45,041 nt of DNA from a virus. Location: positions 1 to 45,041 of IMG/VR virus record IMGVR_UViG_3300023443_000210. One strand, 5' to 3'. The translations under genes and the position numbers were made by a program. The notes beneath the pieces were generated by a model. The model did no database searches. It had not been told where the DNA came from and worked only from the letters and a program-made list of their open reading frames with translations. Below, piece after piece: positions 876-44,880 of the stretch (its first letter is position 1; each line of letters begins with the position of its first letter).

Positions 876-1076
876 TTATTTGTTAAGGTGCTTTCTGGCA
901 TCCTCAATGGCTTTTAGGGCTTTTTTTCTCTTTTTTTCATCATTCGATGCCAAATCTTCTAAAACTTGACCAGGCCGTGTGTAATCCCCCATAGCCTTAG
1001 CTAGCCTGTATATTGCGATGGTACCGGGCGTTAAATCAAATGGATACCGTTTATGGCCTTTAGGCGGTGGTGTCAT
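876..1076 (-). CDS. Small basic hypothetical protein
   Basis: This 66-residue protein is lysine-rich with a helical C-terminal half (KKRKKALKAIEDARKHLNK) and is not recognised. It converges on the 579 gene, leaving 6 bp between stop codons. An AAGGAAAAGCC stretch just before the ATG provides a plausible ribosome binding site. It lies between the operator region and the promoter of the main rightward operon, which fits a small regulator, but nothing in it proves this. Confidence 0.6.
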   Translation of the reverse strand: MTPPPKGHKRYPFDLTPGTIAIYRLAKAMGDYTRPGQVLEDLASNDEKKRKKALKAIEDARKHLNK

Positions 1077-1168
1077 GGCTTTTCCTTTCTAAGTACGGAT
1101 TGTACTAATTGTATCGTCTGTGTTACTTGAAGTAAATAGGAACTTTTGTAGTTTATTTTATTTTACTC

Positions 1169-1196
1169 TTGACACGTTGATACAAACTGCTACAAT
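1169..1196 (+). promoter_or_regulatory. Sigma70-type promoter of the rightward replication operon
   Basis: TTGACA (1169-1174), a 16-bp spacer and TACAAT (1191-1196) lie about 70 bases before the first gene of the operon. The leader after it contains TGACC (1245) and GGTCA that can pair around the GAGGG ribosome binding site, so translation of the first gene may be modulated. The rest of the 1077-1265 gap shows nothing else clear. Confidence 0.6.
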
Positions 1197-1265
1197 TTCA
1201 GTCAAGCAGTTCTTAAATAAGGATGCTACCGCAAATTAGGACATGACCAATAGAGGGGGTCACAA

Positions 1266-1511
1266 ATGATTACAAGGATAGTAACAAAAGATCACATACT
1301 GAAAATCAAAACCTACCTAATAGCCTGGATCTGGCTAAAGCTTAAGAAGGCAGAGAATAATACCTCATTGTTAAAACTCCCCAAGTTCGAGGGATTTCGG
1401 TGGAGTGAGGTAACGATAGTGGATATTGAACGAGAATACTTTGATAAATTGTCACATATGGAACAAAGTTTGATAGTGAATATGTGGCATGATGAAATGG
1501 AAAGGAAGTAG
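1266..1511 (+). CDS. Hypothetical protein, first gene of replication operon
   Basis: This 81-residue protein is not recognised. It is basic at the N-terminus and has several tryptophans (IAWIWLKLKK). The ATG is preceded by GAGGGGG at a suitable distance, although this site can pair with TGACC upstream. The next gene begins 3 bases after its stop, so they are co-transcribed. Confidence 0.65.
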   Translation: MITRIVTKDHILKIKTYLIAWIWLKLKKAENNTSLLKLPKFEGFRWSEVTIVDIEREYFDKLSHMEQSLIVNMWHDEMERK

Positions 1512-1514
1512 AAA

Positions 1515-1937
1515 ATGAGTAATGACAGATTTAAATTTAGAGCCTGGGATAAAGAAGAAGGGAAAATGTGGGGTGACATTGGTGGCCCTGGATTTTGTGA
1601 TTCTGGCTATCTATGTTTTGACATGTCTTTGAAGGAATATGAAGATGGCCCTTATTCTTGTTTAGGGGTAGAACTTGAGACGGATAAGTCCATTCTTATG
1701 CAATGTATAGGTCTAAAAGACGAAACTGGAAAGAATCTTGTTTTTGAGGGCGACATTATTGAATATGACATTCCTTTGGAATCCGATAAACCCTTATCCA
1801 GAAACATTGTTGAGTGGTGTGATTTTAAAAGTCAATGGCGACTAAGTCGGTATTCAGCCCCTTACTACGAAGGTAGCCGTATGAAGGTTATTGGAAACAT
1901 CTATGAAAACCCAGAACTGTTAGAAAAGGAGGCCTAA
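1515..1937 (+). CDS. YopX-family protein
   Basis: This 140-residue protein has the hallmarks of the YopX family common in phages and prophages. It begins with FKFRAWDKEEGKMW, has LMQCIGLKDETGKN and an EGDIIEYD strand, and ends with VIGNIYENPELL. Family members are small beta-barrel-like proteins of unknown function, often in early phage operons. Length is normal for the family. A GGAAG site precedes the start, which lies 3 bases after the previous stop. The family call is secure; the role is unknown. Confidence 0.88.
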   Translation: MSNDRFKFRAWDKEEGKMWGDIGGPGFCDSGYLCFDMSLKEYEDGPYSCLGVELETDKSILMQCIGLKDETGKNLVFEGDIIEYDIPLESDKPLSRNIVEWCDFKSQWRLSRYSAPYYEGSRMKVIGNIYENPELLEKEA

Positions 1938-4671: not shown

Positions 4672-5428
4672 AACAGGAAAAAGAGGAACCCTACCAGAAC
4701 GTCTAATAATCATAGGCGAGAAGAAGATAGGTAAAACTACATTCGGAGCTGATTCCGAAGCGCCTATATTCATCCCTACTGAGGATGGTTGTTCGGGGAT
4801 AGATGGGTTGGCATATTTTGACAAACAAAGTAGCTACAAAGATGTACTGGAACGAGTTGTTGAACTAGGTAAGGAAGATCATAAGTACAAGACACTTGTC
4901 ATTGATACCCTAGATGGTGTTGTTGAGCTATGTTCTAACCAAGTGATGAAGGATAGTTTTGACAATAACCCATTTAAGTTCAACAACTATCTACAAGGTA
5001 ACAAAGTGGTAGCCCAAGAGATGAAACTCCTTCTAGACTATCTAGACCGAATTAGGGAGAAGAAGAAGATGAGAATCATCCTATTATGCCACACTGGTAC
5101 TGCAAACCAGAAGAACCCTGAAGGTGATGATTACATTAAATCCACTGGCTACATGGGTAAATACACTTGGGGCTTATTCGCCAATTGGGCTGACCGCATA
5201 GGCCACGCTGGTTATGACTTTAAGGTACGAAGTGGTGATGACAGTGAGAACAAAAAAGGGAAGATCATACAACGTGATGACAATAGATATCTACGTTTTG
5301 GTGGTACTGCTACTTTAGATGTAGGCTGCCGAATTGGGTATGAAATGAAAGAGGATAAGATACTATTTACATATGCAGATTATAAAAAGAATTCACTAAT
5401 AGAAAGGAAACAAAATGCTACCGTATAA
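4655..5428 (+). CDS. Sak4-like RecA-fold ATPase (single-strand annealing)
   Basis: This 257-residue protein has a Walker A motif GEKKIGKTTF at 21-30 and a Walker B strand LVIDTLD at 81-87. Between them lies PIFIPTEDG, the typical phage nucleotide-binding (Sak4) arrangement. Sak4 proteins are short RecA/RadA relatives that promote annealing or strand exchange with a phage SSB. A strong AAGGAG site precedes the ATG. The next gene is a DUF669-like ssDNA-binding protein, the usual Sak4 partner, which strengthens the call. Confidence 0.85.
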   Translation: MTLQIKTGKRGTLPERLIIIGEKKIGKTTFGADSEAPIFIPTEDGCSGIDGLAYFDKQSSYKDVLERVVELGKEDHKYKTLVIDTLDGVVELCSNQVMKDSFDNNPFKFNNYLQGNKVVAQEMKLLLDYLDRIREKKKMRIILLCHTGTANQKNPEGDDYIKSTGYMGKYTWGLFANWADRIGHAGYDFKVRSGDDSENKKGKIIQRDDNRYLRFGGTATLDVGCRIGYEMKEDKILFTYADYKKNSLIERKQNATV

Positions 5429-5831
5429 TCCAGAGGAAGCAATAAACGAAAAGAAAACAGCAACACCAGGAATCTACACATTCTTTGTAGAAAAATCAGA
5501 GAAGAAGATATGGAATGATAACGAGACTACCAGTCTAACCCTGAAGGTTAACCTTGGGGACAGAGAGGTGACTGTCTTTGATACTATGTACTACACACCT
5601 AAGGCTTTGTTTCGTATCGCGCAGTTTGCAGACTGCTGTGGTATTGACAAGCCTACTGAGCATGATCATTATCAGGGGGCTCAGGGGACTGCTAATTTTA
5701 AGGTTAATGATAAAGGGTATCTTGAGGTGAAATGGTATGAGAGTAAGAAGGTTGCTAAGGCCGGTGCAACTACAGAAGAATCCCCTAAAAGTTGGAATTC
5801 AAAGGAAGAAATTGACGAAATTCCTTTCTAA
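5415..5831 (+). CDS. DUF669-like single-stranded DNA-binding protein
   Basis: This 138-residue protein resembles the DUF669 family found beside Sak4 and RecT-type genes. It starts with PYNPEEA, continues GIYTFFVEKSEKKIWNDNE with beta strands typical of an OB-like fold, and ends in an acidic tail (KEEIDEIPF) like bacterial SSB tips. A GAAAGGA site lies before the start inside the Sak4-like gene. It probably coats ssDNA for the annealing ATPase. Confidence 0.78.
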   Translation: MLPYNPEEAINEKKTATPGIYTFFVEKSEKKIWNDNETTSLTLKVNLGDREVTVFDTMYYTPKALFRIAQFADCCGIDKPTEHDHYQGAQGTANFKVNDKGYLEVKWYESKKVAKAGATTEESPKSWNSKEEIDEIPF

Positions 5832-5880: not shown

Positions 5881-6351
5881 ATGAAAGAATGTAAAAAGTG
5901 CCTTGAACCTAAAGAATTGTGTGAATTTTACAAGCATAAAGACATGGGTGATGGGTATTTAAATATCTGTAAAAAATGTACCAAGAAGAGAATTGCGGGT
6001 CATAGGGATAAGAATATAGAAAAGATCAAGGCTTATGACCGGAAGAGAGGGGGCTTCCCAAATCGAATTGAGGCCAGGAGGAAATATTCTCTTACAGAGG
6101 CTTGTAGGAAGTCGAAAAATAAAGCCAGTAAGAAATGGAGTATAAATAACAAGTTGAAAAGAAGGTGTCACTCACTTGTTAAGGTTGCAATAGAAGCTGG
6201 ACGCATGGAGAGGATGCCTTGTAGTAAGTGTGGTGATGAAAAAGCTGTCGCCCACCATGAAGATTACTGCAAACCCCTAGATGTAGTTTGGCTTTGTAGA
6301 AAGCATCATACAAAAAGACATAAAGAGTTAAGGGAACTAGAAAGAATATAG
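5881..6351 (+). CDS. HNH endonuclease with N-terminal zinc finger (copy 1 of 3)
   Basis: This protein of about 156 residues has an N-terminal treble-clef-like pair of CxxC motifs (CKKCLEPKELCEFY and ICKKC). A basic linker follows, then a C-terminal HNH core CSKCG...VAHHEDY...VVWLCRKHHTKRH. Two homologues lie at 39872 and 42905. The ATG at 5881, 5 bases after AAGGAG, is preferred over an in-frame GTG at 5875. Such proteins are often free-standing homing endonucleases or mobile passengers. The position between the ssDNA-binding and resolvase genes suits either homing or DNA processing. Confidence 0.82.
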   Translation: MKECKKCLEPKELCEFYKHKDMGDGYLNICKKCTKKRIAGHRDKNIEKIKAYDRKRGGFPNRIEARRKYSLTEACRKSKNKASKKWSINNKLKRRCHSLVKVAIEAGRMERMPCSKCGDEKAVAHHEDYCKPLDVVWLCRKHHTKRHKELRELERI

Positions 6352-39486: not shown

Positions 39487-39766
39487 AGTACCTAATGCAA
39501 TGAATCAGATTGAAGATCCAGAACCCGATTCTCACCCAGAACATACAACGACAGATGAGTTGATACAGCAACTAAGAATGAAACATAATGGTAAATACCT
39601 GTACGACCCCTTCTTACATATAGACGTTGCTGGCCGTCTTGAATCACAGCAAAAGAAGATTAAACGATATGAAGCGGCTCTAAATTTAATATCTGAAAAC
39701 TGTCATATTATGGATGATTTGACTTACTGTAATATGGCTTCTGATGCCCTTGAAGAAGAGAAATAG
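39479..39766 (+). CDS. Hypothetical early protein
   Basis: This 95-residue protein has an N-terminal acidic part and a C-terminal helix (AGRLESQQKKIKRYEAALNL). AGGAGGAGG lies before the start. It is not recognised. It stops 3 bases before the TATAATG promoter of the first clear pseudoknot element. Confidence 0.62.
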   Translation: MSEVPNAMNQIEDPEPDSHPEHTTTDELIQQLRMKHNGKYLYDPFLHIDVAGRLESQQKKIKRYEAALNLISENCHIMDDLTYCNMASDALEEEK

Positions 39767-39781
39767 TGTATAATGTTTAAC

Positions 39782-39856
39782 GTCGTGACAGACAATATTA
39801 CTAGCCCATCATCAATTCCAGTTCGTACCGAACTACTGTCACGACTTGGTGATGGG
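39782..39856 (+). ncRNA. Pseudoknotted leader RNA of an HNH gene (copy 1)
   Basis: TATAAT at 39769-39774 places +1 near 39782. From there P1 GTCGTGACAG (39782-39791) pairs perfectly with CTGTCACGAC (39836-39845). P2 CCCATCATCAA (39805-39815) pairs with TTGGTGATGGG (39846-39856) across P1', giving a pseudoknot. P3 AGTTCG/CGAACT (39820-39834) with loop TAC lies inside. Conserved unpaired GACAATATTACT links P1 and P2. The HNH start follows 15 bases later after GAGG. The element corresponds position by position to 42815-42891 with compensatory changes. A read-through ORF from 39773 exists but is disfavoured. Confidence 0.72.
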
Positions 39857-39871
39857 TATTTTGAGGTAGAG

Positions 39872-40342
39872 ATGAAGAAATGTTACAAATGTAAAGAGGC
39901 GAAAGATCCTAGTGAATTCTATAAAAACAAAACCACTAAGGATGGCCTCCGAATCCCTTGTAAAGTGTGTGTGAAAATTTATCAAGAGGATAATAAGGAT
40001 AAGATTAAAGCTTACAAGAAAGAATACTTAAAGAATAATCCAGATTACACCAAAAACTGGTTTAAAAACAATAGAGAAAAGGCAATAGGTTACGCTAAAA
40101 GAAGTAAAGAAAAAGATCCACAAAAGGATAAAGCCCGTCATACGTTAAGGAACGCAGTAAGTTCGGGAAGGGTCTTACAATGTCCATGTTCTGTTTGTGG
40201 TACCGAAGAAGATGTGCATGGTCATCATTGGTCTTATGAAAAAGAACACTGGCTTAATGTCACTTGGCTTTGTAGGAAGCACCATTCAGAAGAACATGAA
40301 AAGATTCGAGCAATCCAAGACTTTGAGAAGAAAGGTAGTTGA
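39872..40342 (+). CDS. HNH endonuclease with N-terminal zinc finger (copy 2 of 3)
   Basis: This 156-residue protein from the ATG at 39872 (GAGGTAGAG upstream) has N-terminal CYKCKEAKDPSEFYKNK and CKVC cysteine pairs, a lysine-rich linker, and a C-terminal HNH core CSVCGTEEDVHGHHWSY...VTWLCRKHHSEEH. It is homologous to the 5881 and 42905 genes. It is preceded by a pseudoknotted RNA leader. A free-standing homing or DNA-processing nuclease is likely; whether the RNA only regulates it or partners it is unknown. Confidence 0.82.
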   Translation: MKKCYKCKEAKDPSEFYKNKTTKDGLRIPCKVCVKIYQEDNKDKIKAYKKEYLKNNPDYTKNWFKNNREKAIGYAKRSKEKDPQKDKARHTLRNAVSSGRVLQCPCSVCGTEEDVHGHHWSYEKEHWLNVTWLCRKHHSEEHEKIRAIQDFEKKGS

Positions 40343-40343
40343 A

Positions 40344-40658
40344 GTGAGTAATGAAACATGTATGTCCTGTGGAGGTTATATCAATAATATATTTCCACCT
40401 TTAGAGAATTGCCAAACCGTCCATTTATACGACGTATATTGTGACTACTATAGAAATAAAGCTAATCTCAAATCCCAACAAGCCAAAATATCGGAGTTAG
40501 AAAAACAATTAGATTACAGTGAACGAACACTAAGTAGTTACGCCAAACATCATAAAGGATGCAGGTTGAATGACCCGAGATATGATCCTGAGTGTAATTG
40601 TGGCCTAGAGGGATTTTTAGAAGATATCAAGGAAAGAAGATTAAATGACAGAAGGTAA
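40344..40658 (+). CDS. Cysteine-rich coiled-coil early protein
   Basis: This protein of about 104 residues starts with GTG at 40344, right after the HNH stop. It has CMSCGG near the N-terminus, a central coiled coil (ANLKSQQAKISELEKQLDY), and a C-terminal Cys/His cluster (CRLNDPRYDPECNCG). It is not recognised. It overlaps the next gene by 14 bases. Confidence 0.6.
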   Translation: MSNETCMSCGGYINNIFPPLENCQTVHLYDVYCDYYRNKANLKSQQAKISELEKQLDYSERTLSSYAKHHKGCRLNDPRYDPECNCGLEGFLEDIKERRLNDRR

Positions 40659-40995
40659 TTCAGGACAACATACTATTGAAGAAGTCTTACAGTGGCTTAA
40701 TGAGAGTAAGGATGAAAACATTAATCTCACATCCCGAATCAAAAAGCTTGAAGAAGAAAAGAAAACTTTAGAGAATTTCATCTCAAAAAGTAAAACGAAA
40801 CGCATTAAATCAACAATAAAATTGTTAAATAAAAACACCTCTCTCCAAGCCCAACTAAAAGCAAGCCAGGCTACAGTAATTAAGATGCAAGAATATGTTC
40901 ATAAATTGACAAAATGTCGAATGGACGATTATTACGATATTGTTTTGGAAGCTGTTGAATATTTTAATACCTTGAAGGGAGATGGAAATGAGTAA
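40645..40995 (+). CDS. Coiled-coil early protein
   Basis: This 116-residue protein is dominated by a basic/acidic coiled coil (TSRIKKLEEEKKTLENFISK). GGAAAGAAG lies upstream of the ATG. The function is unknown. Confidence 0.6.
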   Translation: MTEGNSGQHTIEEVLQWLNESKDENINLTSRIKKLEEEKKTLENFISKSKTKRIKSTIKLLNKNTSLQAQLKASQATVIKMQEYVHKLTKCRMDDYYDIVLEAVEYFNTLKGDGNE

Positions 40996-41167
40996 GAAAT
41001 TTAAAGAAAATAGAATGGTTACAAATGCTATTGAAATAGTTTTTGAAATAATTTCAAGCCAACAAGAAGCCGTAAAAATGACAGATGAAGAATTTAAAGC
41101 TATGCTTGACCATGCTCAAGATAGATGGGATTTTACTATGAATGAATACCGTAATACGGTGGAATAG
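40988..41167 (+). CDS. Small helical early protein
   Basis: This 59-residue protein from the ATG at 40988, with GGGAG upstream, is preferred over an ATG six bases earlier. The sequence is helical and charged; no motif is recognised. Confidence 0.58.
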   Translation: MSKKFKENRMVTNAIEIVFEIISSQQEAVKMTDEEFKAMLDHAQDRWDFTMNEYRNTVE

Positions 41168-41173
41168 GTAAAA

Positions 41174-41302
41174 ATGAAAACAATAATTAAAAAAGGTAAT
41201 TGGACAATCACAATAAAGGAAAGTGATGGTACTCTCGAAATTGATTGGAAAAAAGAAGGTGCACAGAGTAGTAACGGTGTTACCTTGAATACGGAAGGAT
41301 AA
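41174..41302 (+). CDS. Small hypothetical protein
   Basis: This 42-residue, basic then acidic, beta-prone peptide (GNWTITIKESDGTLEIDW) is not recognised. AGGTAA precedes the start. Confidence 0.5.
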   Translation: MKTIIKKGNWTITIKESDGTLEIDWKKEGAQSSNGVTLNTEG

Positions 41303-41307
41303 ACGAT

Positions 41308-41466
41308 ATGACTGAATTAGAGATATTAAAAAATCGTCGTGAAGAAATGTTAAAAACTCAAAAAGCACATCCTTGGGATTCTTTCCGTAGAAAAACATTT
41401 GACCGCTTGGAGGATAAAATTTTCCAATTAAAACAATCACAACCCAGTTCCCCAACGGAGAAATGA
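41308..41466 (+). CDS. Small charged hypothetical protein
   Basis: This 52-residue helical protein (MTELEILKNRREEMLK) follows GGAAGGA. It may be paralogous to other short helical genes in the cluster. The role is unknown. Confidence 0.52.
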   Translation: MTELEILKNRREEMLKTQKAHPWDSFRRKTFDRLEDKIFQLKQSQPSSPTEK

Positions 41467-41472
41467 GCGAAG

Positions 41473-41724
41473 ATGAGCTTTAAAGGTTTGTGCCATCCAG
41501 ATTACCCAAAAGATCCTAATAATAAAATAGTTGTTCATGGTGACGGTTGCAGCTCAGACCATGAGTTTACTGCCTGCGGGATAGCGTTTGAAGAATGGGA
41601 GATAAATGAACAGGAAACAGAATTCACTGATGAACCTATAACCTGTAAATTTTGCATAGAAGCCATTGAGTTAATTTATAACAAATTTAAAAAAGCCAAA
41701 GGTAAATGGAGACAAGTATCATGA
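41473..41724 (+). CDS. Cysteine-containing hypothetical early protein
   Basis: This 83-residue protein has C, H and C-rich segments (HGDGCSSDHEFTACG and TCKFC) that could bind zinc. It is not recognised. A 17-codon ORF starts on its stop (ATGA at 41721) and reaches the next gene, probably a coupling device. Confidence 0.6.
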   Translation: MSFKGLCHPDYPKDPNNKIVVHGDGCSSDHEFTACGIAFEEWEINEQETEFTDEPITCKFCIEAIELIYNKFKKAKGKWRQVS

Positions 41725-41770
41725 CCTCTCACCCCAACTACTCCACCATGCCCGAAGAGAAAGGATTAGA

Positions 41771-42193
41771 ATGAAAGATGATTTTGGAACATTTCTAAGC
41801 AAAGCGATTGATGACTGTTTAGGTTCATCGGCTTATTCAATGGAAAGAGACAGACCTTATGACGGACAACCGCACACAAGCGCAGGTGAAAGAGGTAAAA
41901 CGAAAGTAGAAGGTGTGACTTTTCGGGACGTTAGCGACTGCATTATTTTAGGACTATTAGAATCAACAGGCGAACCATTAAAAGAAAATCCCGTTGAAAA
42001 TGATGTCTACAGTGTTGACTGGAACGATATTGATTTTATGGCAGTCGTTAAAAACTCCTTAATTCGCATTGAAAAACTGATGAATATTTACCCTAACATT
42101 TCCAAGCTTACTTGTGAAAATTGGCCTGAAGGTATTATAGATGATGATGTTCCCAACCCCCTCAATCCTGACCAAGAAAGAGAAGTAGAATGA
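41771..42193 (+). CDS. Hypothetical early protein
   Basis: This 140-residue protein is acidic with no motif recognised. The start overlaps the end of the 17-codon coupling ORF (ATGA), and GAAAGGA precedes it. The stop overlaps the next start by 4 bases. Confidence 0.6.
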   Translation: MKDDFGTFLSKAIDDCLGSSAYSMERDRPYDGQPHTSAGERGKTKVEGVTFRDVSDCIILGLLESTGEPLKENPVENDVYSVDWNDIDFMAVVKNSLIRIEKLMNIYPNISKLTCENWPEGIIDDDVPNPLNPDQEREVE

Positions 42194-42381
42194 GAGCACA
42201 AGGTTATTCAATGGATCTATATTGTGACAACACATCATGTCCAGTTCATAGAATGCAGGAAGAATATGGAACGATGAATGGCCAAAACAGTTTTACAGCT
42301 TGTGTTAAACAGGCTAGAAAAGATGGGTGGCAGATTGGCGAAAAAGACTATTGTCCTAATTGTAAACCAGATCGGAGATGA
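42190..42381 (+). CDS. Small zinc-binding protein
   Basis: This 63-residue protein has cysteines at YCDNTSCPVHR and a C-terminal DYCPNCKPD, together a plausible zinc ribbon. It is translationally coupled to the preceding gene. Confidence 0.6.
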   Translation: MRAQGYSMDLYCDNTSCPVHRMQEEYGTMNGQNSFTACVKQARKDGWQIGEKDYCPNCKPDRR

Positions 42382-42382
42382 G

Positions 42383-42598
42383 ATGAATGATAAATATGTA
42401 GAACAACATTTAAAGATGAAATACTTTGTGTTGAAACCTGAAGGAAATAGTATCTATGCCAAGGCTTCCAGAAATGCTATGAAAACTTACGCAAATATTA
42501 TTGAGGATGAGGCCCCTCAATTCGCAGCCGAGTTACTCGAATGGGCTGGCAAAGAGGCTCTAGAAGTCCTTAAAGACAATGGGCTAACCAATGACTAA
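42383..42598 (+). CDS. Small hypothetical protein
   Basis: This 71-residue protein from the ATG at 42383 follows CGGAG; a longer frame starting at 42278 would overlap the previous gene and is rejected. The C-terminus is helical (AAELLEWAGKEALEVLKD). No family is recognised. Confidence 0.58.
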   Translation: MNDKYVEQHLKMKYFVLKPEGNSIYAKASRNAMKTYANIIEDEAPQFAAELLEWAGKEALEVLKDNGLTND

Positions 42599-42764
42599 AA
42601 ACCTAAAGCCAAGTGAGATCAAAATAGGTAAATTCACGATATCACAAAACCCATTATGGATAACTATTAATGACCTTGATCCTGACCGTCAAGGTGAAGG
42701 TGGGGAATTTCACGAAGAAGAATTTGAGAAAGTTATAGGGAAGTTTTATGAACAATTCTTCTAA
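42591..42764 (+). CDS. Small hypothetical protein
   Basis: This 57-residue protein starts inside the previous gene (ATGACTAA overlap). It has a short beta region (KIGKFTISQNPLWITI) and an acidic helix. It ends shortly before the second TATAATG pseudoknot leader. Confidence 0.55.
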   Translation: MTKNLKPSEIKIGKFTISQNPLWITINDLDPDRQGEGGEFHEEEFEKVIGKFYEQFF

Positions 42765-42814
42765 GCCAAGTGAGTTGCTACCGTGTCCTTACTGAATAGT
42801 GTATAATGCTTAAT

Positions 42815-42891
42815 GTCGTAGTGGACAAAATTACTGAACTCAATGCCGTCTCAGGAACTACCGTTCCACCACTACGATACGGTGTTGGGTT
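42815..42891 (+). ncRNA. Pseudoknotted leader RNA of an HNH gene (copy 2)
   Basis: TATAAT at 42802-42807 gives +1 near 42815. P1 GTCGTAGTGG (42815-42824) pairs with CCACTACGAT (42869-42878; one G-U). P2 AACTCAATGCCGT (42837-42849) pairs over 13 positions with ACGGTGTTGGGTT (42879-42891; three G-U) across P1'. P3 GGAAC/GTTCC with loop TACC (42854-42867) lies inside. Relative to copy 1 the P1 and P2 sequences differ at many positions but keep pairing, and spacer GACAAAATTACT is nearly unchanged. The HNH ATG follows 13 bases later. Confidence 0.72.
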
Positions 42892-42904
42892 TTTTGGGGA
42901 TAAG

Positions 42905-43513: not shown

Positions 43514-43581
43514 GGTGTTATCATAAGTTTAAAAGTTTTAATTGTCCTTAGGGAAGTAGTTACCCCTAAAGGAATAACATC
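43514..43581 (+). ncRNA. Structured RNA candidate with AAGTAGTTAC loop (family B, copy 1)
   Basis: GGTGTTAT (43514-43521) pairs with ATAACATC (43574-43581). An inner hairpin CCTTAGGG (43546-43553) with CCCTAAAGG (43564-43572, one bulged A) presents the 10-nt loop AAGTAGTTAC. It is preceded by TATAAT (43508-43513). GTTTAAAA (43527-43534) could also pair with TTTTAAAC downstream (43613-43620). The same loop and outer-stem arrangement recur at 43694-43807. No ORF covers it. Confidence 0.58.
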
Positions 43582-43693
43582 GAAGTGCTAAGTAAGTGTT
43601 TCCTAATTGGCATTTTAAACGCGTTTCTAGGCGGGGTCTAAGGGGTTTAGGGTAATTAACATGAGATACTATCTTATGTTATAATGTAGTTGT

Positions 43694-43807
43694 GTTGATT
43701 GACCGGTGATTGTACAATGATATCATAGGAAAAAATTAAGATGTTTTTAGGAAGTAGTTAGCCTAGAAATAAAATGATATCGGTTTCAACTATCATCGCC
43801 AATCAAC
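43694..43807 (+). ncRNA. Long hairpin RNA candidate with AAGTAGTTAG loop (family B, copy 2)
   Basis: An extended -10 TGTTATAAT (hexamer 43680-43685) places +1 near 43693, the base of an 8-bp stem GTTGATTG (43694-43701) with CAATCAAC (43800-43807). Nested stems follow: CGGTGAT with ATCATCG, GATATCAT (43719-43726) with ATGATATC (43774-43781), and TTTTTAGG (43744-43751) with CCTAGAAA (43762-43769), capped by loop AAGTAGTTAG. There is no ORF. It lies 11 bases before the 3' end of the antisense leucine-body tRNA. Confidence 0.62.
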
Positions 43808-43818
43808 CATTTTAACAA

Positions 43819-43924: not shown

Positions 43925-44880
43925 GGTGGCAGTATAGCTAATTCTCTGAGATTGTCTCTATCCGTTTAAATCAACTAAATCCCCAACAGTCCAAGCTTCA
44001 TTAGCCACCCCAAGAGCTACGGCCGGAGTTTGTTTGATACTAGTATGGATTTTGACAAAGTTGTAGTAAGCAAAATGCAACCCCATAGCAGCCTTAAAGT
44101 TTACAAGCTTCTTACTGAAAGCATTCGTCAACCTTGCTAACCTTTTACAGTGCATACGTACTGTTAAGTTCTGCCTCTCAATATGCGATGTACAAACAAG
44201 TTTCATATCTGGCTCACCAATTAGCGCTGTCTTACTTATTGAAACAACATGACCTGGACTGTAACGACCCTTACCGTATGGAGCGATCTTGTGTCTCTTC
44301 TGGATGTATGTCTTTACCACTTGCCCGTAGTCAATATTGTTACCAAACTCGTCTTCGATAGCATATATGTATGGCTTCAACGAATCAGAACTAAGTTGGA
44401 TCCTATGATTAAGACGACTGGCTAAATCCCGTATGAACTCAGTGGTCATCTCCCTATCCCTGTCGCTGACGACTTTGAAACATGGTACGGCTTTGCTATC
44501 TGGGTCTAGAGCGATATAAGTCCAGGCATGTCCTAATCCTTGAGCCTTCTCTTCATCATTGGTATTCTTTTGTTTCTTACCTATGAAGCCCCAGATTTCA
44601 TCGACTTCTATTTTGGAACAGTTAAGGTTGACCATAGTTTGCTTGAGCCACTTCTCACACTGATTACCAATTTGTACGCCTAATCTCATGATGGTATCTC
44701 GGTGAATACCCGTCATACGCTCTACTGATCTAATACTGGAACCTTCGACTAATGCTGAAATAACTTGGATTTGTTTGTCTTTAGATAGTTTGTTCATCTT
44801 TTATCCATTCATGTTATAATAAAAGACAGACAAGACCAGTTGGCGCCGAATGAAAGCGTTACTTAACCTTGCCTGCCACG
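43925..44880 (-). mobile_element. Possible IS1-family element around the transposase
   Basis: The transposase gene is flanked by GGTGGCAG (43925-43932) and, inverted, CTGCCACG (44873-44880). The match is 7 bases (GTGGCAG/CTGCCAC) plus scattered identities inward. No clear target duplication is visible. The boundaries are therefore tentative and the insertion may be old or decayed. Confidence 0.4.
43958..44797 (-). CDS. IS1-family DDE transposase
   Basis: This 279-residue intact frame has an N-terminal helix-turn-helix (SIRSVERMTGIHRDTIMRLG, about 21-40) and a DDE core with Asp66 (EVDEIWGFIGKK), Asp138 (SSDSLKPY) and Glu207 (HIERQNLTVR). The IS1-typical tail is AFSKKLVNFKAAMGLHFAYY. No programmed frameshift is needed. 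It lies between two tRNA-like genes, with a TATAAT on the opposite strand at 44815. It could be a recent insertion or a resident gene used by the phage. Confidence 0.85.
   Translation of the reverse strand: MNKLSKDKQIQVISALVEGSSIRSVERMTGIHRDTIMRLGVQIGNQCEKWLKQTMVNLNCSKIEVDEIWGFIGKKQKNTNDEEKAQGLGHAWTYIALDPDSKAVPCFKVVSDRDREMTTEFIRDLASRLNHRIQLSSDSLKPYIYAIEDEFGNNIDYGQVVKTYIQKRHKIAPYGKGRYSPGHVVSISKTALIGEPDMKLVCTSHIERQNLTVRMHCKRLARLTNAFSKKLVNFKAAMGLHFAYYNFVKIHTSIKQTPAVALGVANEAWTVGDLVDLNG

Follow-up and report, generated by a model that had tools for sequence, protein, structure and literature searches.

Why should two HNH endonuclease genes of one phage each be preceded by the same knotted RNA fold, and what could such a fold do at the head of a message? 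The question is posed by IMG/VR record IMGVR_UViG_3300023443_000210, a 45,041-bp phage sequence that includes genes for a major capsid protein and a terminase-like protein, analysed here over its whole length (the window), in which one crossing fold occurs 5′ of two HNH genes, at 39782-39856 (copy 1) and 42815-42891 (copy 2). The element is a new covarying pseudoknotted RNA motif, so far from a single phage, and most likely serves as a control or protection element of the HNH messages. More specifically, we propose with a probability of roughly 0.5 that it is a cis-acting 5′-terminal leader of two stand-alone phage HNH genes, acting in 5′-end protection and possibly in translation gating, because it combines a covarying fold, linkers of fixed length, a start at the predicted +1, an adjacent Shine-Dalgarno (SD) sequence and a non-coding character.

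In both copies the fold runs in the order P1 (10 bp), linker L1 (GACAAWATTACT), P2 (11 or 13 bp), hairpin P3, and then the 3′ strands of P1 and P2 (P1′ and P2′), with the following parts.

39762-39775, plus strand: copy 1 promoter box AATAGTGTATAATG, exact in both copies; −10 TATAAT at 39769-39774, predicted +1 at 39782
39782-39791, plus strand: copy 1 P1 5′ strand, at the predicted mRNA 5′ end; partner strand 39836-39845
39791-39802, plus strand: copy 1 conserved linker L1, GACAATATTACT, whose first base is the final base of P1
39805-39815, plus strand: copy 1 P2 5′ strand; partner strand 39846-39856
39820-39834, plus strand: copy 1 P3 hairpin, AGUUCG-UAC-CGAACU
39836-39845, plus strand: copy 1 P1 3′ strand
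39846-39856, plus strand: copy 1 P2 3′ strand, abutting P1′ and followed by the SD GAGG at 39863-39866
42795-42808, plus strand: copy 2 promoter box; −10 at 42802-42807, predicted +1 at 42815
42815-42824, plus strand: copy 2 P1 5′ strand; partner strand 42869-42878
42824-42835, plus strand: copy 2 conserved linker L1, GACAAAATTACT
42837-42849, plus strand: copy 2 P2 5′ strand; partner strand 42879-42891
42854-42867, plus strand: copy 2 P3 hairpin, GGAAC-UACC-GUUCC
42869-42878, plus strand: copy 2 P1 3′ strand
42879-42891, plus strand: copy 2 P2 3′ strand, abutting P1′; SD GGGG at 42896-42899

Segment lengths are fixed for P1 (10 bp), L1 (12 nt), the P2-to-P3 junction J2/3 (4 nt), the P3-to-P1′ junction J3/1 (1 nt) and the P1′/P2′ boundary (0 nt), with P2 comprising 11 bp in copy 1 (12 with one GU pair) and 13 bp in copy 2, and P3 comprising 6 and 5 bp of differing sequence. 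Re-analysis reproduced the coordinates, stems, common promoter box and 7-nt spacing given in a preliminary description of the locus; its statement that the copies show no length changes held for the total (77 aligned columns, no gap), but not for the 5′ arms of P2 and P3, which lie 1 nt later in copy 2.

The two copies are 56% identical in this alignment, and their differences respect the pairing. Read as copy 1/copy 2, the P1 pairs are, in order, GC/GU, UA/UA, CG/CG, GC/GC, UA/UA, GC/AU, AU/GC, CG/UA, AU/GC and GC/GC, so that positions 6-9 form four consecutive double compensatory changes, as had been described, and 10 of 10 pairs are retained; P2 and P3 also differ largely in sequence and pair in both copies. 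When substitutions were drawn at random in the same columns (200,000 trials), P1 survived in 1.5% of trials, the 13-bp P2 in 0.25% and both in 0.0045%, under a null that assumes independent columns and is no substitute for a many-sequence test. A pseudoknot descriptor applied to both strands of the window (90 kb) ranked the two copies first and second (scores 66.5 and 63.0), the third-ranked site scoring 54.5 and requiring a 129-nt span with a far longer loop. A covariance model built from the pair gave its own two sequences 96 and 94 bits, by construction, and the rest of the window at most 10.8 bits; two copies in one genome are too few for significance of the R-scape type. Crude energies also favour the knot, at about −18 for P1 with P3 and about −16 for the P2 duplex against nested minima of −22.6/−24.1, and the knot stays ahead of the nested minimum even after a penalty of 7-9 kcal/mol. 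Outside the stems, L1 is identical at 11 of 12 positions, and the UACC loop of P3 is kept as well.

Homology between the loci starts abruptly at AATAGTGTATAATG and extends through L1. This box is identical at 14 of 14 positions, all other sites in the window having at least three mismatches, and no direct repeat in the region is longer than the stretch from box to L1 (41 nt, 83%). Since TATAAT lies 7 nt directly before P1 in both copies, the transcript would be expected to begin with the first base of P1, and the earlier proposal that the mRNA starts with this strand thus coincides with the predicted +1. At the other end, the SD follows P2′ after 6 nt in copy 1 (GAGG, 39863) and 4 nt in copy 2 (GGGG, 42896), which leaves the ribosome-binding site (RBS) outside all three stems in both. 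Translation of a 33-codon leader, raised in the preliminary description as a contrary outcome, found no support: the changes fall on all three codon positions (11/15/14), synonymous codons make up 2 of the 23 that changed, and residue conservation is as high in the other two frames, so a coding leader was rejected. A transcription attenuator was likewise rejected, as the terminator-like stem at 39836-39855 in copy 1 has no counterpart in copy 2.

The genes that follow the leaders, and a third paralogue that serves as a contrast, are these.

39872-40342, plus strand: HNH endonuclease gene 1, phrog_2340, 156 aa
42905-43288, plus strand: HNH endonuclease gene 2, phrog_2340, 127 aa; closest to gene 1 in the tree
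5881-6351, plus strand: HNH paralogue 3, in the recombination module, with neither box nor leader

All three match the phrog_2340 profile (E 2.5e-29, 7.9e-15 and 4.4e-35) and have intact invariant Cys/His columns in an N-terminal CxxC...CxxC plus HH...C..HH motif. The predicted structure of the gene 1 protein (predicted local distance difference test score, pLDDT, 95.9) matches predicted phage HNH/endonuclease VII proteins. In the PDB, a sequence search gave nothing informative and a fold search was weak, with a T5 phage endonuclease as top match (E 0.2). The proteins of genes 1 and 2 are about 41% identical and nearest each other in the tree (94/85; the branches are long and the grouping is not firm); promoter, leader and gene were therefore probably duplicated together as one unit. 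Both copies outside the recombination module carry the leader, and the copy inside it, where the order is exonuclease, Sak4-like annealing protein, SSB-like protein and HNH, carries none. The SSB-like neighbour (5415-5831, plus strand), between the annealing protein and HNH gene 3, is a small protein with an SSB-like acidic tail, EEIDEIPF. In several GenBank phages phrog_2340 HNH homologues also adjoin ssb, a linkage which suggests that some family members may serve recombination rather than homing.

Searches of IMG/VR, GTDB genomes, GenBank phages, plasmids and 33 phage records, either related or HNH-bearing, brought up no third copy of the element. The pattern GTCGTNNNNGACAANATTACT had 15 matches in IMG/VR and, with W, 31 in GTDB genomes, and patterns for promoter plus P1, for L1 plus the P3 loop and for the 3′ half had 1, 47 and 108 matches; none of those examined held the fold at a comparable score. 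All five patterns require near-identity in L1 or the loops, and a diverged family could escape them. Blastn of each copy against phages and plasmids returned nothing convincing, and a covariance-model search, a kind of test advocated in the preliminary description, turned up no homologue in 33 whole phage records or in 163 loci (83 HNH, 80 capsid-related). When the descriptor was run on the sequence 5′ of 83 IMG/VR and 12 GenBank HNH homologues, it gave only non-homologous matches, with scores that shuffles also attain. A terminase search of IMG/VR yielded no close relatives of the phage, and its closest fragments, L185 and L186 (70% capsid identity), lack a copy in the 14 and 10 kb that they cover, L185 spanning the structural region. 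Right after the terminase, L185 has a probable, different-looking HNH gene (1023-1703, plus strand) without a leader.

Other HNH loci have features of their own. In another phage, an HNH homologue (L074:960-1190, and L073) follows a sigma-70-like promoter, TTGTAG-17-TATACT, and a strongly structured-looking leader with GCAAAAAAA/TTTTTTTGC that has no homology to the present element. The HNH genes of L021, L024, L027 and L028, which the tree joins weakly (79/82) to the two leader-bearing genes, have a −10-like box immediately 5′ and, about 60-130 bases 5′ of the HNH start, a run of C that leads into an A/T-rich run (e.g. TTCCCCCCAAAATTTTTT), possibly a common insertion site.

How might a leader of this kind act? 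With no nucleotide between P1′ and P2′, P1 and P2 could stack end to end along the continuous P1′-P2′ strand as one helix, with the RNA 5′ end in the P2/P1 nick. A triphosphate end so placed, with no unpaired 5′ nucleotide, would block RppH and 5′-sensing RNase E and give a long-lived mRNA; as both enzymes require single-stranded 5′ ends (PMC3997798), protection by the knot is to be expected. Less certainly, the rigid knot beside the SD may gate ribosome loading. Conservation of the unpaired L1 and the UACC loop suggests a further contact, tertiary or protein; these segments might be contacts for a regulator, again less certainly, and most plausibly for the HNH protein, which contains zinc and would repress its own translation; such self-binding is the most economical guess after the example of T4 gene 32. 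In ideal A-form geometry L1 would have to span 57-62 Å with 12-13 nt (maximum about 77-83 Å), which is feasible, and a P1 of about one turn would allow both linkers to follow the axis and could account for the constancy of their lengths.

Several points weigh against this proposal. There are only two copies, from one genome, and neither promoter site has a conserved or consensus −35 box, so that we infer both promoter and +1 from the −10 box alone. The SD lies outside the stems, so that an on/off switch is not obvious. For the helices to stack coaxially in full, J2/3 would have to cover about 31 Å with 4 nt (about 30 Å of reach), which is tight and possible only if stretched. Stability alone would not account for 11/12 identity in an unpaired L1.

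One alternative is a translational operator alone, in which the HNH protein or a phage or host RNA-binding protein binds L1/P3 and stops translation, 5′-end protection being irrelevant. Unpaired L1 and the UACC loop are conserved between otherwise diverged copies, the HNH protein has a four-cysteine zinc motif at its N-terminus and gene 32 offers a precedent; an operator, however, has no need for P1 to start at +1, and two proteins of about 41% identity would both have to retain recognition of one RNA. We regard this account as rather unlikely. A ligand-binding riboswitch, with the knot as aptamer and P2 formation beside the SD tuning translation, would fit a compact pseudoknot with conserved loops in a 5′ untranslated region near the SD, placed like preQ1 or SAM-II. 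It is quite improbable, given stems so long (about −15 kcal/mol each) that little room is left for ligand-dependent folding, the lack of an Rfam match and the rarity of riboswitch control among nuclease genes.

Very improbable in our judgement is a DNA-level element, whose paired arms would be operator or homing-site repeats with the RNA fold incidental. Operators bound by I-TevI-type endonucleases do overlap their own promoters (PMC2988022), but here the arm sequences change while their pairing is kept, when a DNA site would keep sequence and not complementarity, and protein sites seldom take the form of two crossing helices joined by linkers of fixed length. We give equally little credence to the more ambitious idea that the element opens a class of pseudoknot RNAs tied to HNH genes, each of which would form a ribonucleoprotein with its own nuclease, control or direct that enzyme's activity and travel with it as a mobile cassette. 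Slimmer still is the chance of a trans-acting RNA processed off the leader to become partner or guide of the enzyme. The tight linkage of RNA and HNH gene at two loci speaks for it; set against this are the absence of a conserved terminator between RNA and gene, of a guide-like free end and of a separate RNA gene, a third HNH paralogue without a leader, and a small phage protein (127-156 aa) in which Pfam finds no part of an RNA-guided nuclease.

The slimmest chance falls to an HDV (hepatitis delta virus)-like self-cleaving ribozyme that would trim read-through transcripts so that they share this 5′ end: the present element has the strand order of such ribozymes (P1, P2, P3, P1′, P2′) but without their P4, and a G begins P1 at the would-be cleavage site, but P1 has 10 bp, not 7, the joining segment that would hold the catalytic C between P1′ and P2′ is 0 nt long, and Rfam gave no HDV match at E up to 10. 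Of the functions listed in the preliminary description, a regulatory or 5′-end-protecting RNA thus remains the best part, and the catalytic and guide-like options are without support.

Against Rfam release 15, the window matches only two tRNAs at the gathering cut-off and nothing relevant at E up to 10, in agreement with the earlier failure to match HEARO, HDV-like or OMEGA RNAs. HEARO RNA was rejected on this ground and on its differing gene partner and layout, and the OMEGA RNA of IscB-type nucleases because the partner here is a 127-156 aa phrog_2340 HNH protein. A type III toxin-antitoxin system (ToxIN-like) was also rejected, since each gene has one RNA copy and not tandem repeats, a conserved terminator is lacking, and an HNH enzyme stands in place of a ToxN-fold RNase.

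Between HNH gene 2 and tRNA-Phe lie two more structured-looking RNAs (43692-43812 and 43541-43573, both plus strand), which have no Rfam match and carry a hairpin with an identical loop, AAGTAGTTA, on different stems 3′ of TATAATG boxes. The fold of the second is much better than that of shuffles (z −4.1). It matches sigma-70 at 11/12 positions (TTAACA-18-TATAAT) and, like the leader element, begins near its predicted +1, with a long closing helix. Adjoining the tRNA at the end of the phage record is an IS1-family-like transposase gene (43958-44797, minus strand; Pfam DDE_Tnp_IS1).

If real in vivo, the element would be a compact fold absent from Rfam, apparently tying an mRNA 5′ end into a pseudoknot at +1, and would add to the cases in which RNA controls a phage endonuclease gene; a fold anchored at +1 would also make a simple test case for knot-based 5′-end protection in bacteria.

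Among known systems, the 5′ stem-loops of the ompA and papA type that stabilise bacterial mRNA likewise pair the 5′ end at or near +1, but they are simple and have neither pseudoknot nor conserved linkers. With preQ1-II and other three-stem (HLout) pseudoknot riboswitches the element shares a three-stem pseudoknot adjoining the SD, the extra hairpin lying between P1′ and P2′ in preQ1-II and between P2 and P1′ here. In preQ1-II the SD is buried in a pseudoknot stem (PMC11625349), whereas here it is free, 4-6 nt after P2′. The T4/T2/RB69 gene 32 knot, through which gp32 regulates its own synthesis, is similarly a phage 5′-untranslated-region pseudoknot 5′ of the RBS of a zinc-containing DNA-metabolism protein; it differs in being small, internal to its leader and followed by an A+U-rich binding tract, and since it was possibly the sole viral example of translational autoregulation by a pseudoknot as of 2010, a second phage candidate would be useful (PMC3014915). 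RNA structures also control phage homing endonucleases (PMC2988022), and the leaders of I-TevI, mobE, segB and seg43(25) resemble the present one in combining a structured 5′ leader, a nearby promoter of its own and an endonuclease gene. They are simple hairpins, of which most cover the RBS, as in mobE, segB and I-TevI, and arise only on read-through transcripts, in contrast to a three-stem pseudoknot that would form from +1 and leaves the RBS uncovered. The seg43(25) hairpin, however, ends right before an uncovered RBS (PMC2988022), and by its position the present leader would serve a similar purpose through another type of fold, one that is knotted and starts at +1.

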